NCBI GenBank assembly: GCA_013140455.1
Contig: JABFSU010000032.1
Span: 1-64,000, forward strand
Origin: Nitrospira sp.
GTDB taxonomy: Bacteria > Nitrospirota > Nitrospiria > Nitrospirales > Nitrospiraceae
Direction: 5' to 3'
DNA: 64,000 bases
The position numbers and the translations under genes were made by a program. Shown in pieces: positions 1,986 to 23,590 of the stretch. The stretch's first letter is position 1. Each line of letters begins with the position of its first letter. The notes beneath the pieces are model-generated. The model did no database searches. It was not told the DNA's origin and was given only the letters and a program-made list of their open reading frames with translations.

Positions 1986-5459
<3,474 letters not shown>

Positions 5460-13567: not shown

Positions 13568-14560
13568 CTAGCGGATCTGCTCGAGTACGGCCGCGGCTAA
13601 GAGTGGCAGCATAATCTCATGATGCCCGGTCAGGGCATAGCCCTTGCCGCCTTTTTGAGTCGGGCGTTTCACCACATTCGTCAGGGGCCGATAGTGCGAG
13701 AGGAAATCCATATTCACCGTAGTGATCTTGGTGAGCGGATGGCCGAGATTGCGCCCGAGCGACACCGTTTTCAAAAACACTTCCGGCAGGATGACGGCCG
13801 ACCCCACATTCAGATAGACCCCGCCTTCCATGCCGGCGACCACCGCGGCGAGCCGGCGAAAATCTAATAAGGACGTGGCTCCGATGGCGGCGCCATCTGC
13901 AGCGGGGTGCATGTGGATGATATCCGTCCCGATTGCGACGTGTACGGTAACGGGAATGCCGAGCTTTGCGCCGGCGGCGAGAATGCTCGTCGCGCGGTTG
14001 GGAAACTGGCCTTGATAGCGATTGATGTAGTGTCCGACGGCTTCCCCGAGTCCCTGGCCGTGTTGTGCGCCGAGCGTGATGGCTTCGTTCAAGATGCGGC
14101 CGGTGTCTTCGGCCATGCCGAAGCGGCCTTCGTCGATCTCGGCGTCCACTTCTTCCGATGTGTGCCCCATGAGCGCCAGCTCGAAATCGTGGATGATGCC
14201 GGCTCCGTTCATGGCCACGGCCGTGACGATGCCGCGCTCCATGAGATCGACGAGGAGCGGGGCGAGGCCCACTTTGATCACATGGGCGCCGATACCGACG
14301 ATGACCGGACGATGCTGGCGGTGGGCTGTCGCAATTGCAGTAGCCACGGCTCGCAATGTCTTCACCGCGAGCAGATCGGGCAGTGATGCGAAAAATTGTT
14401 CGAACGATCCTCCGCTGGTCCACGGCCGGGCGAAGTCGGACACCCGCACTTTACTGTGACGCTTTTTCAGCGGATAGGTCGTCAGATCCGAGACATCGAT
14501 CGGAGGAATCAACGGCCGCGCGGGACGTTGCGGGGGAGTCCGGTTAGGACGCGGTGCCAA
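13568..14560 (-). CDS. Deoxyhypusine-synthase-like NAD-binding protein
   Basis: 330 residues matching the deoxyhypusine synthase superfamily (PF01916): AMNGAGIIHDFELALMG, a glycine-rich IGTDIIHMHPAADGA stretch and a terminal YALTGHHEIMLPLL region. The eukaryotic enzyme transfers the aminobutyl group of spermidine to a lysine of eIF5A, a protein bacteria lack, so the substrate here is unknown. The eukaryotic enzyme attaches its intermediate to a lysine in an AVSWGKI-like motif; the corresponding place appears to read TVSLGRN, so the lysine may be replaced. The reading frame overlaps the end of gmhA by 17 bp, pointing to translational coupling. Function is open; related amine-transfer reactions such as homospermidine synthesis are possible. 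Confidence 0.82.
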   Translation of the reverse strand: MAPRPNRTPPQRPARPLIPPIDVSDLTTYPLKKRHSKVRVSDFARPWTSGGSFEQFFASLPDLLAVKTLRAVATAIATAHRQHRPVIVGIGAHVIKVGLAPLLVDLMERGIVTAVAMNGAGIIHDFELALMGHTSEEVDAEIDEGRFGMAEDTGRILNEAITLGAQHGQGLGEAVGHYINRYQGQFPNRATSILAAGAKLGIPVTVHVAIGTDIIHMHPAADGAAIGATSLLDFRRLAAVVAGMEGGVYLNVGSAVILPEVFLKTVSLGRNLGHPLTKITTVNMDFLSHYRPLTNVVKRPTQKGGKGYALTGHHEIMLPLLAAAVLEQIR

Positions 14561-15122
14561 GGAGTGTTTCCTCTACGAGTTCGCACAGGACATGACCGAG
14601 CGTGATATGGCTTTCCTGGATGCGCGCCGTCACCGTCGAAGGGACGACGAAGGGATGATCGACGAGGCCGGCGAGTGTGCCGCCGGTGCCGCCGGTCCAG
14701 GCGATGGTGATCATGCCACATTCGCGGGCGGCTGCGACGCCTTTCAACACGTTCGGCGAATTGCCGCTGGTGCTGATGGCGATGGCGATGTCGCCTTTCT
14801 GGCCATGGGCGCGGACCTGCCTGGCGAAGAGTTCGTCGAAGCCATAGTCGTTGGCGATGCAGGTGATGGCGGCGATGTCAGTGGCGAGGGCGATGGCCGG
14901 CAGCGGCTTGCGCTCGCGTTTGTAGCGGCCGACGAATTCCGCTGCGATATGCGCGGCGTCTGTGGCGCTGCCGCCGTTGCCGAACAGCAGGACTTTGCGT
15001 CCTTCGCGAAAGGCAGTAACCATTAATGCAGCGACCTGAGCGATGCGGTCGGCGTGGTCGTGCGCAAACTGCTGCTTCACGGTCGCGCTGTCGGAAAAGG
15101 CCTTGAGGATAAAATCCTTCAT
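14544..15122 (-). CDS. gmhA: Phosphoheptose isomerase GmhA
   Basis: 192 residues with the SIS-domain signatures of GmhA: LLFGNGGSATDAAHIAAEFVGR near the N-terminus, the ISTSGNSPNV loop and a C-terminal QESHITLGHVLCELVE helix carrying the catalytic Glu and His. It converts sedoheptulose 7-phosphate to D-glycero-D-manno-heptose 7-phosphate, the first step to ADP-heptose for LPS core, in the cytoplasm. A near-consensus promoter sits so close to the ATG that the transcript would be leaderless or nearly so; there is no Shine-Dalgarno sequence. It is first in an operon with the deoxyhypusine-synthase-like gene. Confidence 0.94.
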   Translation of the reverse strand: MKDFILKAFSDSATVKQQFAHDHADRIAQVAALMVTAFREGRKVLLFGNGGSATDAAHIAAEFVGRYKRERKPLPAIALATDIAAITCIANDYGFDELFARQVRAHGQKGDIAIAISTSGNSPNVLKGVAAARECGMITIAWTGGTGGTLAGLVDHPFVVPSTVTARIQESHITLGHVLCELVEETLLGTAS

Positions 15123-15177: not shown

Positions 15178-16128
15178 CTACGCTTTCGGTGGCGGGGTCG
15201 GCGAGCCCTGCTTGATGGCGCTCATCGCCAGTGCGATCATGGAGCCCACGTCGGAGACGGTTGCCGGGAGAATGAGCGTATTGTTGGTCCTGGCCAACTC
15301 GCCGAATTTCGAGATGTATTGTTCCGCCACACGCAGCTGGACCGCTTCCTGTCCGCCGGGCACTTGAATGGTTTCGGCAACTTTCCGGAGTCCTTCGGCG
15401 GTCGCTTGGGCGATTGCGAGAATGGCCGAGGCGGCGCCTTCGGCTTCATTGATCTGCTGCTGTTTTTTCGCTTCCGAGGCCTTGATCACTTGCTGCTTCT
15501 CACCCTCGGCCTGGTTGATCGCGGCGTCGCGTTCGCCTTCCGATGTGAGAATCACGGCGCGCTTTTCCCGCTCCGCCCGCATCTGCTTTTCCATCGCATT
15601 GAGCACATCTTTCGGCGGCGTGATGTTCTTGATCTCATAGCGCAGGACCTTGACGCCCCAGGGGTCCGAGGCTTTGTCGAGCTCGTTCACGACTTGGATA
15701 TTGATGTTGGTCCGTTCTTCGAACGTGCGGTCGAGTTCGATCTTCCCGATCTCGCTTCGCAGGGTGGTTTGGGCCAGCTGGATCAAGGCGAAGCCGTAGT
15801 CGCTGATGCCATAGGAGGCGCGCTGCGGATGCAACACTTTGAGATACAGGATGCCGTCCACCGAGACCTGCACGTTGTCGCGGGTGATACAGACCTGCTC
15901 GGGGATATCGATCGCGGTTTCTTTGAGCGAGTGTTTGTAACGGATGTTGTCGATGAAGGGGAGCAGGATGTGGAAGCCGGCGTCCAAGGTGGCCGAATAC
16001 TTTCCCAGCCGCTCCACGACATAGGCGCTTTGTTGCGGGACGACGACCGCCGTCTTCGCGAAGACATAGAGGACGAACAGGGCCAATAACAGTGTGACCA
16101 GAAATCCGCCGCTCATACCACCATCCAT
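15178..16128 (-). CDS. SPFH/band 7 membrane protein (stomatin/QmcA-like)
   Basis: 316 residues: one N-terminal membrane segment (about 8-24), a band 7/SPFH domain (YVVERLGKYSATLDAGFHILLP to about residue 190), an alanine/glutamate-rich coiled coil (EKRAVILTSEGERDAAIN onwards) and a C-terminal oligomerisation region. Such proteins form large membrane-associated ring assemblies and usually partner with NfeD proteins, which is the gene 28 bp upstream here. A GGAG is about 9 bases before the ATG at 16128; an in-frame ATG at 16116 is an alternative start. Confidence 0.93.
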   Translation of the reverse strand: MDGGMSGGFLVTLLLALFVLYVFAKTAVVVPQQSAYVVERLGKYSATLDAGFHILLPFIDNIRYKHSLKETAIDIPEQVCITRDNVQVSVDGILYLKVLHPQRASYGISDYGFALIQLAQTTLRSEIGKIELDRTFEERTNINIQVVNELDKASDPWGVKVLRYEIKNITPPKDVLNAMEKQMRAEREKRAVILTSEGERDAAINQAEGEKQQVIKASEAKKQQQINEAEGAASAILAIAQATAEGLRKVAETIQVPGGQEAVQLRVAEQYISKFGELARTNNTLILPATVSDVGSMIALAMSAIKQGSPTPPPKA

Positions 16129-16156: not shown

Positions 16157-16591
16157 CTATTCGCCGGCGATCAGCAACGTCAGGCCGTCCATGCCGGTGA
16201 CTTTGCTCCGTTGTCCTTTATTCAAGGGAGTGGGGCCGGCATTTCTGGCCGACCAGGTGGTGCCTCTGAGCTCGACTTTTCCGAAAGCGCCGGCTGCCAG
16301 CGTGTCTACGGGAATGGCGACTTCACCTACCATCGAATCGACGTCGGGATGTTTCACTTCTGAGGCATTCATGCGCGCCAACAGAGGGCCGCGAAACAAC
16401 AGCAATGACGCGATGGCGATGCCGGAGAAAAGCAGCCATTGTGTGGACTCTCCCGGGACGAGTTCCATCCACGCGATGGCTCCGACCACCAGGGCGGCAA
16501 GGCCGAAGAAGAGAAGATAGAACCCGCCGGGGGTCATCATCTCGGCGCCCGACAGGAGCAACCCGAGTAAGAGCCAGTACCACCAGGTCAT
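16157..16591 (-). CDS. nfeD: NfeD-like membrane protein, partner of the SPFH protein
   Basis: 144 residues from the ATG at 16591 (MTWWYWLLLG), chosen over the open frame to 16741 because it starts at the first membrane segment with an AGG upstream. Two to three membrane helices (residues 3-70) are followed by a soluble OB-fold of the NfeD C-terminal type (MVGEVAIPVDT, GKVELRGTTW, GLTLLI). This is the short NfeD form without a ClpP-like protease domain. It forms a two-gene operon with the stomatin-like gene; the pair is common in bacteria and acts in membrane organisation. Confidence 0.88.
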   Translation of the reverse strand: MTWWYWLLLGLLLSGAEMMTPGGFYLLFFGLAALVVGAIAWMELVPGESTQWLLFSGIAIASLLLFRGPLLARMNASEVKHPDVDSMVGEVAIPVDTLAAGAFGKVELRGTTWSARNAGPTPLNKGQRSKVTGMDGLTLLIAGE

Positions 16592-16740: not shown

Positions 16741-17997
16741 ATGGCTCACGAACAACCCACGAAGGTGTTGCTGGTCGCCTTCACCGACGATGCGGCGGCG
16801 GCGGTCTATGTCATCAATCGGCTCCAGCCGGAGGCGCTGTGCTTCGTGTTGCCGGAATCCGCAAAGACATTGGTGGAATCGGCCGTTCAACCGAACATTG
16901 AGCACATGCCCAGGCGGTGGGATTGGGTCGTACTGGCCGATATGATCGATGTGGCAGCCTGCCACCACGTGCTGGCTGGTGCGCTGCCGGACTTGCTGAA
17001 GATGTGGGATGTCCACTCAGGCGATCTGGTGCTCGATCTTACCGGCGCCACTCCGGCCATGGCCGGGGCGCTGACGCTGGTGACGCTCCCGATCAGTTCA
17101 CGAACGGTGGCGCTGCTGCCGTGGAGTGAGGGGGAAGAGGGTGAACCGATTTCATTCAATGGCCGGTCGGTGCGCTGGGCACAGGGCAATCTTTGGGACG
17201 ATGTGGCGCTGGTCTCACGTCATGAGGCCGCCGAGCTGTTCAATCGAGGAATGTATCAGGCCTCGGCCAGACTGTTTCGCGAGATTGAGGCCAGGGTGAG
17301 CGGCGGGCAGAAACCGACCTATCGCGCCTTTGCCGATCTTGCCGAGGGCTATGCATTCTGGGAGCGATTCCACTATCGGCAGGCTTGGGACAAATTGAAG
17401 ACCGCCACGAAGGCATTAGAAATGGCCTCCCTCTGGGGCGGCCCGCCGGGATTGAAAGCCGTCCTGCCGGGGATCAAAGCCAACGCCGGCTTCCTCGAAC
17501 GCCTCGTGCTCGATCCCGCTGCGGTCAAGGATTCGCTGAACCTCGATCTGCTTGCTCACGTGAGTCGTCGCCTCCATGTGGTTCATGATCCTGAAGCGGC
17601 GATGATCGCTCTGTTGCGCGCGCTCGAATCGTTCGCTCAGCGGCAGCTGTTCAAACAGCACAAGGTCAAAACCTGGGATGTGCTGCCGGAGCAGCTTCCG
17701 CAGGCACTTCAGGAAGCTTGCCGGACGTCCTGGTTGGACGATGTCGACGGCAAGTACAAAATGTCGTTGCAGAGTCAGTTCCGAGCCCTCGCGGAACTGG
17801 GCGATCCACTGGGGCACGCATTTGTGCGCGACTGGCCGACCATGAAACCGCTGCTCGACGCCGCCAATCATGGCGTGCTCGGCCACGGTTTTGAGCCGGT
17901 CAAGGCCGAACGGGTGCAACAGTTATACGACATCGTCTTGAAGTTGACCGGGGTAACAGAGTCATCGTTGCCGAAGCTCCCCACGCTCGCGCTCTAA
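16741..17997 (+). CDS. Orphan CARF-HEPN protein of the Cas02710 (TIGR02710) type, degenerate active site
   Basis: 418 residues with the architecture of the Cas02710 family (PF09670), related to Csm6/Csx1. N-terminal Rossmann-like CARF domain (residues 1-130): the strand KVLLVAF and, at 99-107, DLTGATPAM, where family members usually read DxTGGTKxM. The C-terminal helical part has the family's LFNRGMYQASARLF, YAFWERFHYRQA, LLRALESFAQ and ELGDPLG motifs. The terminal HEPN motif, usually RNxSxLxHGF, reads ANHGVLGHGF: His382 is kept but the RNase arginine is Ala375. Known relatives bind cyclic oligoadenylate and cut RNA. Here there is no CRISPR or cas gene in the window, and the neighbours are housekeeping, so a repurposed or regulatory role is inferred. 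YbgC follows by 5 bp. Confidence 0.83.
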   Translation: MAHEQPTKVLLVAFTDDAAAAVYVINRLQPEALCFVLPESAKTLVESAVQPNIEHMPRRWDWVVLADMIDVAACHHVLAGALPDLLKMWDVHSGDLVLDLTGATPAMAGALTLVTLPISSRTVALLPWSEGEEGEPISFNGRSVRWAQGNLWDDVALVSRHEAAELFNRGMYQASARLFREIEARVSGGQKPTYRAFADLAEGYAFWERFHYRQAWDKLKTATKALEMASLWGGPPGLKAVLPGIKANAGFLERLVLDPAAVKDSLNLDLLAHVSRRLHVVHDPEAAMIALLRALESFAQRQLFKQHKVKTWDVLPEQLPQALQEACRTSWLDDVDGKYKMSLQSQFRALAELGDPLGHAFVRDWPTMKPLLDAANHGVLGHGFEPVKAERVQQLYDIVLKLTGVTESSLPKLPTLAL

Positions 17998-18002
17998 CCT
18001 AC

Positions 18003-18413
18003 ATGGAAGTCAAAATATACTATGAAGATACGGACTGCGGTGGAGTGGTGTACTACGCGAACTACCTCAAATACTTTGAACGGGCGCGGACGCACTATCT
18101 TGAAGAGCGGGGGCTGTCGGTGTCCGGTCTGATGAATCAAGGGACGGTGTTTGTGGTCGTGCGTGCGGAACTGGACTATCGGTCTCCCGCGCGGTACGGC
18201 GACACGCTTCTCGTCGATACCATCGTTTCAGATCTGAGTGCAGCTTCTATGACCTTCGCGCATGTGGTGAAAGAAAAGGCGAGCGGGCGCGTGATCGTGG
18301 AAGGCTCTGCTCGACTGGCCTCGACAGATGGAAACGGCAAGGTAAAACGTCTCGACAAGGCGGTCCTAGCCGTACTACAGTCCGAAGCCGATAAGGAGTC
18401 ATTGAATGGATAA
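18003..18413 (+). CDS. ybgC: YbgC/FadM family acyl-CoA thioesterase
   Basis: 136 residues, a single hot-dog fold. The motif YYEDTDCGGVVYYANYLKYFERARTHYL carries the catalytic Asp and the family's H/N-Y-L-K pattern. It hydrolyses acyl-CoA or acyl-ACP thioesters in the cytoplasm. In many bacteria ybgC belongs to the tol-pal cluster; here no tol genes are present. It starts 5 bp after the CARF gene, so the two may share a transcript, and its end overlaps a tiny membrane-protein gene by 8 bp. Confidence 0.93.
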   Translation: MEVKIYYEDTDCGGVVYYANYLKYFERARTHYLEERGLSVSGLMNQGTVFVVVRAELDYRSPARYGDTLLVDTIVSDLSAASMTFAHVVKEKASGRVIVEGSARLASTDGNGKVKRLDKAVLAVLQSEADKESLNG

Positions 18414-22637: not shown

Positions 22638-23039
22638 CTACTTTTCCTGAAACATCTTCAGCAGTTGCTCAAGCCCGCCGGCTTCAATCTTTCCGGTCGG
22701 CGTCAGCTTGTCGACGAGATCCGGTAACAGGCCGGCGAGTTGCGTACCGGCAACTTCGGTCGAGATTCCGGCCTTGGTCGCCAGCTGGCTGAGAAGATCT
22801 CCGCCGAGGCCCTGTTGAATCTGCTGAGGGGTCACAGGCAGGTTCTTGCCGGTGCCTACCCAGGAGTTCACGATGTCGCCCAGGCCGTTCTTTTGGAAGG
22901 TTTGGACCAGTCCTGCAAGCCCTCCGACTGAACTGTTCTGGCCGAGCAAGCCGGTCAATGCTTGCAGCAAAGGATTTTGGTTGCTGTTTCCGCCGAGCAT
23001 GCCGCCGACCGCTTGTCCTAATTGATCCATGAGACTCAT
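22638..23039 (-). CDS. yidB: YidB-like (DUF937-type) protein
   Basis: 133 residues from the ATG at 23039, which has a GGAGG upstream and overlaps the barstar stop by 4 bases. Glycine/asparagine-rich segments (GGMLGGNSNQNPLLQALTGL) precede the typical PQQIQQGLG..LLSQLATKAG..LLPDLVDKLTP pattern of the YidB family. Function is unknown in any organism. Its place behind an RNase-barstar pair is unexplained. Confidence 0.83.
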   Translation of the reverse strand: MSLMDQLGQAVGGMLGGNSNQNPLLQALTGLLGQNSSVGGLAGLVQTFQKNGLGDIVNSWVGTGKNLPVTPQQIQQGLGGDLLSQLATKAGISTEVAGTQLAGLLPDLVDKLTPTGKIEAGGLEQLLKMFQEK

Positions 23040-23590
23040 TGCGGTGTCCTCCCATTCTTTGCGGGACGAGACGATCGCCCTTTCGTCGGGGGTGGGAGAT
23101 CCGGCATCGGTGCCGGATCGATCCCCCAATGTTTTCTCTTAGGTGCTTCCTGATCTGATACCGCAAAGAGAGCATGAAAGGCAATCGCCTTGGGCCCCCC
23201 GCCCGCCTGGCCTTTGCTCCAGGCTTCCCCGGCATCGCTCAGAATCTCGAGCAGCGTTTCGTATTCGTCCTCGTCGTCGGCCAAGACGGCTTGCGCATCG
23301 GTGAGGAGCAGAATATAGCCTTTGGCCGGCAGCCATTCCAAATCCGCGAGACATTCTTCCATTGCGTCCCAGTTGTGACCGAAATAGTCGGGGAAGCCCA
23401 AGGCGTGGGCGAATTCGGTGAACAGGCCGGCTGGGGTCGTGCATTTTTTGCCGTGGATCACGCGCAGCGCGAATCCGGCCTGGACTTTGACCAAAGCGGC
23501 CGCCGTTGTGCCGGCCGGGAGGACAAGCAAGGACGACCAGGGGGCTTTTGGCGTCTGGAGGTAACTCATCAAGGTGCGTGGTGGTGTCAT
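23036..23590 (-). CDS. Barstar-family ribonuclease inhibitor
   Basis: 184 residues. The barstar fold covers about residues 38-145: FPDYFGHNWDAMEECLADLEWL corresponds to the barnase-binding helix of barstar, with the first key Asp (WDA) kept and the second (Asp39 of barstar) replaced by Glu. A C-terminal Pro/Lys/Arg-rich tail (PDLPPPTKGRSS) is extra. Barstars bind and block guanyl-specific RNases in the cytoplasm. The upstream gene 15 bp away encodes such an RNase, so this is probably its immunity protein. Confidence 0.88.
   Translation of the reverse strand: MTPPRTLMSYLQTPKAPWSSLLVLPAGTTAAALVKVQAGFALRVIHGKKCTTPAGLFTEFAHALGFPDYFGHNWDAMEECLADLEWLPAKGYILLLTDAQAVLADDEDEYETLLEILSDAGEAWSKGQAGGGPKAIAFHALFAVSDQEAPKRKHWGIDPAPMPDLPPPTKGRSSRPAKNGRTPQ

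Follow-up and report, generated by a model that had tools for sequence, protein, structure and literature searches.

The gene at positions 16741–17997 (+) of the 64,000-nucleotide stretch of Nitrospira DNA analyzed here (the window) encodes a protein of 418 amino acids with CARF, 6H and HEPN domains, a homolog of the Csm6/Csx1-type proteins that is predicted to be catalytically dead. It is a core gene of its order, present in nearly all Nitrospira-group bacteria sampled. We favor the hypothesis, to which we assign a probability of roughly 80%, that the protein is a domesticated pseudo-effector that serves as a non-enzymatic binding or scaffold protein. Effectors of type III CRISPR systems are regarded as replaceable, fast-evolving weapons. 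Here, an immune effector that seems to have been stripped of its sensor and enzyme functions is found among the conserved core genes of a bacterial order.

Protein family and fold

The CARF domain covers residues 5–150 (16753–17190, +) and is the least conserved domain, in which the first ligand-site motif, SxGGxxEP, has been replaced. It is followed by the 6H domain at residues 157–228 (17209–17424, +), the most constrained part of the protein, and by the HEPN domain at residues 268–403 (17542–17949, +). In a profile search of the open reading frame, matches above the curated cut-offs were obtained to TIGR02710 over residues 21–403 (E = 1.1e-30), to the Csm6 HEPN family PF09670 over residues 268–403 (E = 1.1e-15) and to the Csm6_6H family PF22205 over residues 157–228 (E = 4e-15). 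The initial annotation had placed the protein in the Cas02710 family of CARF-HEPN proteins and had named a search with PF09670 and TIGR02710 as the means to check this; the assignment is borne out by these matches. The PADLOC model PDLC01812 (“CARF1--CARF_HEPN”) matched 418 of 418 positions (E = 1e-222, 737 bits), and a whole-length match of this strength implies that the model was built from this very protein or a very near relative.

The structure was modeled as a monomer with AlphaFold2 from an alignment of 54 relatives, with a mean pLDDT of 91.3. The best structural match of the model was Csm6 of Thermus thermophilus (TtCsm6; 8jh1), with a VIA-align Z score of 21.4 and an rmsd of 7.4 over 377 residues, and Thermus Csm6 was also matched by Foldseek (E = 1.4e-12). 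EiCsm6 and StCsm6' were matched as well, and the fold is that of a CARF, 6H and HEPN protein. The first 150 residues of the model matched the CARF domains of Can2, Card1 and others (Can2: Z 15, rmsd 2.0, 122 residues). A PDB sequence search with the single sequence returned chance matches only (WD repeats, E >= 0.015), and TtCsm6 was recovered with a profile of 13 homologs. By profile as well as by fold, the protein is thus of the Csm6/Csx1 type by descent.

Loss of catalytic and ligand-binding residues

The active site of the HEPN domain reads AANHGVLGHGF, as compared to xRNxSxLAHGx in the intact relatives, so that the R-x4-6-H motif is degenerate (A375-N-H-G-V-L-G-H382; 17863–17886, +). The short motif GHGF quoted in the initial annotation is part of this active site without its arginine, a point that had been missed. 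The other members from the Nitrospirales have AANHxVLGHGF or a similar sequence at the site. Residues were counted across the order in 151 alignment rows, in which several genomes are represented twice. The HEPN arginine at position 375 was kept in 0 of the 151 rows (A in 145, V in 3, S in 2 and T in 1), and the ligand lysine of the CARF domain at position 105 was likewise kept in none, with proline in 113. Across the order, the CARF motif GGTK has been changed to GATP, GATA or GATS, which in the protein studied here lies within D-L-T-G-A-T-P-A-M-A-G (residues 99–109; 17035–17067, +). Two further CARF motifs have disappeared from the order, SxGGxPEP at the first ligand site and YxGGxERTKxG in the mobile loop. 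S13, G103, Y124, R130 and R290 are conserved in the intact relatives and present in none of the 151 rows of what we here call the dead form, in which the mobile-loop positions Y124, R130 and G136 are lost. The HEPN asparagine N376 is kept in 107 rows and the histidine H382 in 143, and E296 is among the kept positions. We ruled out that the arginine had merely been misaligned, as the stretch from W-x-x-M-K to L-x-H-G is gapless between the dead and the intact forms.

The residue numbers of TtCsm6 (K137, E332, R415, N416 and H422) were transferred by HMM alignment, in which A375 falls on R415, H382 on H422 and P105 on K137 of the GTK motif; E296 corresponds to E332. In TtCsm6, the replacement of R415, N416 or H422 with alanine, each singly, almost wholly abolishes the RNase activity (PMC4748810), while the K137A mutant neither binds cA4 nor displays cA4-activated RNase activity (PMC10897365). 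The changes to alanine at the position of R415 and to proline at that of K137 are of the same kinds as these inactivating mutations, which suggests, by analogy with a reference protein of 18–19% identity, that the protein would neither cleave RNA nor sense cOA. Because the asparagine and the histidine are mostly kept, some residual or altered activity is possible. As judged from the alignment, the R-x4-6-H motif, the CARF ligand lysine and the mobile-loop motif expected of a cOA-activated HEPN ribonuclease are all missing. The role of a nucleotide-signal responder suggested in the initial annotation is hard to reconcile with the order-wide loss of the HEPN arginine, the cOA-binding lysine and two more ligand-site motifs, and with a CARF domain that is the least conserved of the three.

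Distribution in the Nitrospirales

A survey of the genus yielded a match in 74 of 79 genomes; 72 of the 79 carry the gene in its dead form, some as fragments at contig ends, and two have a CRISPR-type copy only, which is 25–26% identical. According to a phylum sample, with family counts tallied by hand from its listing, an orthologue is present in 52/54 genomes of the genus, 54/56 from elsewhere in the family and 26/28 of the second family, corresponding to 132 of the 138 sampled genomes in the two main families; the third family has it in 1/3 and the fourth in 0/3. We also searched 84,980 named genomes and considered the best 80 of 149 matches, among them Ca. Nitrospira defluvii (FP929003.1) and N. 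moscoviensis (NZ_CP011801.1). All of these 80 were labeled as Nitrospirota or Nitrospira except for one Nitrospinota (JADFRB010000094.1) and one Nitrosospira (CAADGK010000056.1) assembly. These two bear Nitrospirales-type copies and are probably mislabeled or contaminated. Beyond the best 80 of the 149 matches, there may be distant carriers in other phyla. In one genome, a decayed C-terminal second copy with 3 stops (3323–3544 of locus L200, G072:C56) follows the intact copy downstream, at a distance of about 1.3 kb, and is the leftover of a tandem duplication.

Single origin and intact relatives

A maximum-likelihood tree was computed without the motif columns. All dead sequences form one clade with 100/100 support and a stem of 0.51 changes per column. 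Immediately outside this clade is the intact protein encoded on contig JACRHA010000094.1, followed by family f21, while the CRISPR-type homologs (n = 12) make up the outgroup (100/100). The branching inside the dead clade follows the families, with 97/90 support for the family of the window, which indicates vertical descent. The intact relatives, 12 of CRISPR type and five stand-alone, all have RNxSxLAHG and GTK, and the CRISPR-linked intact copies occur in the same order. Going by gene names read from translations, three of the latter adjoin cas1/cas2 or csm-type genes, the copy on JACRHA010000094.1 sits between murJ-like and glmM-like genes, and the f21 copies sit between NAD kinase-like and rho/prfA/murA-like genes; no cas genes were found beside these stand-alone copies. 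Cas10 scored over the cut-off in 4/10 of the f21 genomes, so the intact stand-alone copies there may still serve cOA signaling. Because the intact stand-alone groups are the nearest relatives of the dead clade, the CRISPR context would have been left while the protein was intact, and the activities would have been lost later, once, before the order diversified. The loss of residues in all members, the single origin and the vertical inheritance can be read from the sequences themselves.

CRISPR and signal-making genes

The host genome (3.79 Mb, 95.5% complete) contains a single match to PF09670, which is the protein encoded at 16741–17997. Searches of this genome for the Cas10 palm, Cas1 and the SMODS CD-NTase, two of which had been called for in the initial annotation, found none of the three. 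A CRISPR system hidden elsewhere in the genome was rejected as far as these markers and a second CARF-HEPN protein are concerned. As the search covered Cas10, Cas1, SMODS and CARF-HEPN, the genome may have other defense systems. In the 79 genomes of the genus, Cas10 was found over the cut-off in 6, Cas1 in 34 and SMODS in 11, and in the order as a whole, Cas10 was found over the cut-off in 14/236 genomes. Neither the host genome nor the survey of the order tied the gene genetically to type III CRISPR or to any other cOA synthase, and the rarity of Cas10 argues that the gene is uncoupled from the cOA signal.

Gene neighborhood

A YbgC/FadM-family (4HBT) thioesterase gene (18003–18413, +) follows on the same strand after a gap of 5 bp and is likely to belong to the same operon. 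Upstream, on the opposite strand, are genes for an NfeD-like protein (16157–16591, −), an SPFH/Band 7 protein (15178–16128, −) and a GmhA-like SIS-domain protein (14544–15122, −). The initial annotation had described a solitary CARF-HEPN gene at a housekeeping locus, flanked by nfeD/SPFH and ybgC. This description holds, and a survey of the neighborhood in the Nitrospirota, which it had proposed, identified gmhA and ybgC, not cas genes, as the conserved neighbors, in both families. Neither of the two outcomes named there as grounds for refutation, a missing profile match and a conserved neighborhood with a type III CRISPR locus, was thus obtained. A ybgC gene was located within 700 bp in about 58 of 73 loci, some of which are cut by locus ends; since the adjacency is not universal, the shared operon is no more than suggestive, though a connection with the YbgC-type thioesterase is plausible. 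The same does not hold in general for nfeD and SPFH, as these genes adjoin the CARF-HEPN gene in 17/28 listed loci of its own family and in 0/15 loci of other families. Their absence from the locus in the second family led us to reject them as conserved functional partners, and the link to membrane stress considered in the initial annotation is weak.

At five loci, a gene for a 23S rRNA-IVP protein (PF05635, a four-helix bundle of ~100–120 amino acids) is placed between the CARF-HEPN gene and ybgC. These inserted genes lie in DNA that is richer in AT, and look like a mobile element that has been inserted repeatedly. The gap of ~400–540 bp before ybgC in some genomes is due to this inserted gene and does not contain a conserved partner. 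Elsewhere in the window, the gene at 13568–14560 (−) encodes a protein with distant similarity to deoxyhypusine synthase (PF01916, E = 1.4e-4, below the cut-off), which is kept beside gmhA across the order and is unusual for a bacterium. A Barstar-domain protein is encoded at 23036–23590 (−; PF01337, E = 2.5e-27), and no barnase gene was noticed adjoining it.

Selection and shift of constraint

Pairwise dN/dS ratios were 0.03–0.19 for the whole gene and 0.02–0.25 for the HEPN domain, which shows that the protein is maintained by purifying selection. The possibility of a pseudogene was ruled out, since dN/dS is well under 1 in every domain and the apparent gene fragments are explained by assembly gaps (N) in two genomes and by contig ends in four. 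Between the CRISPR subgroups, the identity is 41% for CARF, 26% for 6H and 36% for HEPN, with CARF as the best conserved domain, and between the dead form of the window's family and the intact stand-alone proteins it is 31%, 49% and 39%, respectively. The 6H domain is the best conserved within the dead clade too. Near-invariant positions amount to 14/146 (10%) in CARF, 30/110 (27%) in 6H and 36/158 (23%) in HEPN. On these comparisons, the constraint has moved from the CARF domain to the 6H domain and the HEPN scaffold. Because the conservation of 6H is already common to the intact stand-alone group, a constrained role of this domain predates the loss of catalysis. Conserved lysines, arginines and tryptophans are numerous in the 6H and HEPN domains, and we infer that this part forms a surface for binding to a partner or to RNA.

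Proposed history and role

We hypothesize that a Csm6/Csx1-type CARF-6H-HEPN ribonuclease departed from type III CRISPR and became established at chromosomal housekeeping loci while it was still intact. Both the binding of cOA (CARF GGTK and the two other motifs) and the cleavage of RNA (HEPN R to A) would then have been lost in the common ancestor of the Nitrospirales. From then on, the gene would have been passed down by vertical descent, as a core gene whose product has a non-enzymatic role. The dead protein may still dimerize, its 6H and HEPN part holding a partner protein or RNA, as the pattern of conservation suggests, and it would probably be produced together with the YbgC-type thioesterase. 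Its probable role is to bind or scaffold as a dimer.

Another hypothesis is that the protein is a ligand-switched stand-alone sensor, in which the CARF domain binds a different small molecule and the dead HEPN domain relays the signal by a change of shape, perhaps to the thioesterase. Such a role would fit the adjacency of ybgC, a CARF fold that is kept with high confidence, as indicated by the match to Can2, and the new CARF residues that the dead clade has fixed (W60, D61, W62 and E46), which could shape a new pocket. However, these residues may be structural, no candidate for a signal-making enzyme is known, and a sensor pocket should be a hot spot of conservation, whereas CARF is the least conserved domain; we consider a sensor of this kind rather unlikely. 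Still more improbable is the idea that the protein works as a ribonuclease whose active site is rearranged and whose trigger is something else than cOA. The retention of H382, N376 and the equivalent of E332 speaks for it, but R415A alone disables TtCsm6 (PMC4748810), no member has kept the arginine, and in 8/15 rows of families f2 and f3 the histidine is also lost (Y, Q, G or N), while the gene is strongly constrained. The least probable role is that of an immune decoy or inhibitor, which would dampen type III responses by associating with active Csm6/Csx1 or by sequestering cOA. Although five genomes have both a dead and an intact CRISPR-type copy, the gene is kept in an order where Cas10 is rare, the lysine required for sequestering cOA is gone, and at ~25% identity to the CRISPR copies mixed dimers are unlikely.

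We therefore return to the non-enzymatic binding or scaffold protein. A fuller version of this hypothesis, which we offer tentatively and hold to be less likely true than false, is that an alarm effector of CRISPR or abortive infection became an essential or near-essential core protein of Nitrospira and its relatives in two traceable steps, first intact and stand-alone, then dead and fixed, with the 6H and HEPN part acting as a scaffold or an RNA-binding regulator linked to the acyl-CoA thioesterase.

Comparison with known systems

The protein or a near copy of it is already cataloged in PADLOC as PDLC01812, an entry that assigns neither a function nor a system, and its existence as a CARF-HEPN protein is thus known. 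No account of the inactivation, the single origin or the core status seems to exist in the literature that we searched, to which the 2020 CARF survey did not belong; that survey may have priority. The protein resembles TIGR02710/Cas02710 (PF09670 plus PF22205) over almost its full length, but unlike this family, which is annotated as CRISPR-associated, the dead clade is chromosomal, occurs mostly in genomes free of Cas10 and lacks the functional residues. Automatic labels such as those of TIGR02710 and PADLOC, which point to CRISPR or defense, are misleading for nearly all Nitrospira genomes.

With TtCsm6 (PDB 5FSH, 8JBB, 8JH1), the protein shares the fold and the order of the CARF, 6H and HEPN domains, the equivalent of E332 and, in most members, those of N416 and H422. 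It differs in having P105 for K137 and A375 for R415, in the loss of the first ligand and mobile-loop motifs, in its low identity and in having no CRISPR locus. The loss of R-x4-6-H is shared with catalytically inactive HEPN domains such as Swt1, for which a nucleic-acid-binding role is inferred to be retained (Anantharaman et al., 2013; PMC3710099), although these belong to different HEPN families and are not CARF proteins. The closest outgroups are the intact stand-alone proteins of f21 and JACRHA010000094.1 (L076–L080 and L102), which like the dead clade sit at housekeeping loci with no adjoining cas genes, but unlike it keep RNxSxLAHG and GTK. With such intact intermediates surviving, the path by which an immune protein entered cell biology is open to stepwise testing.
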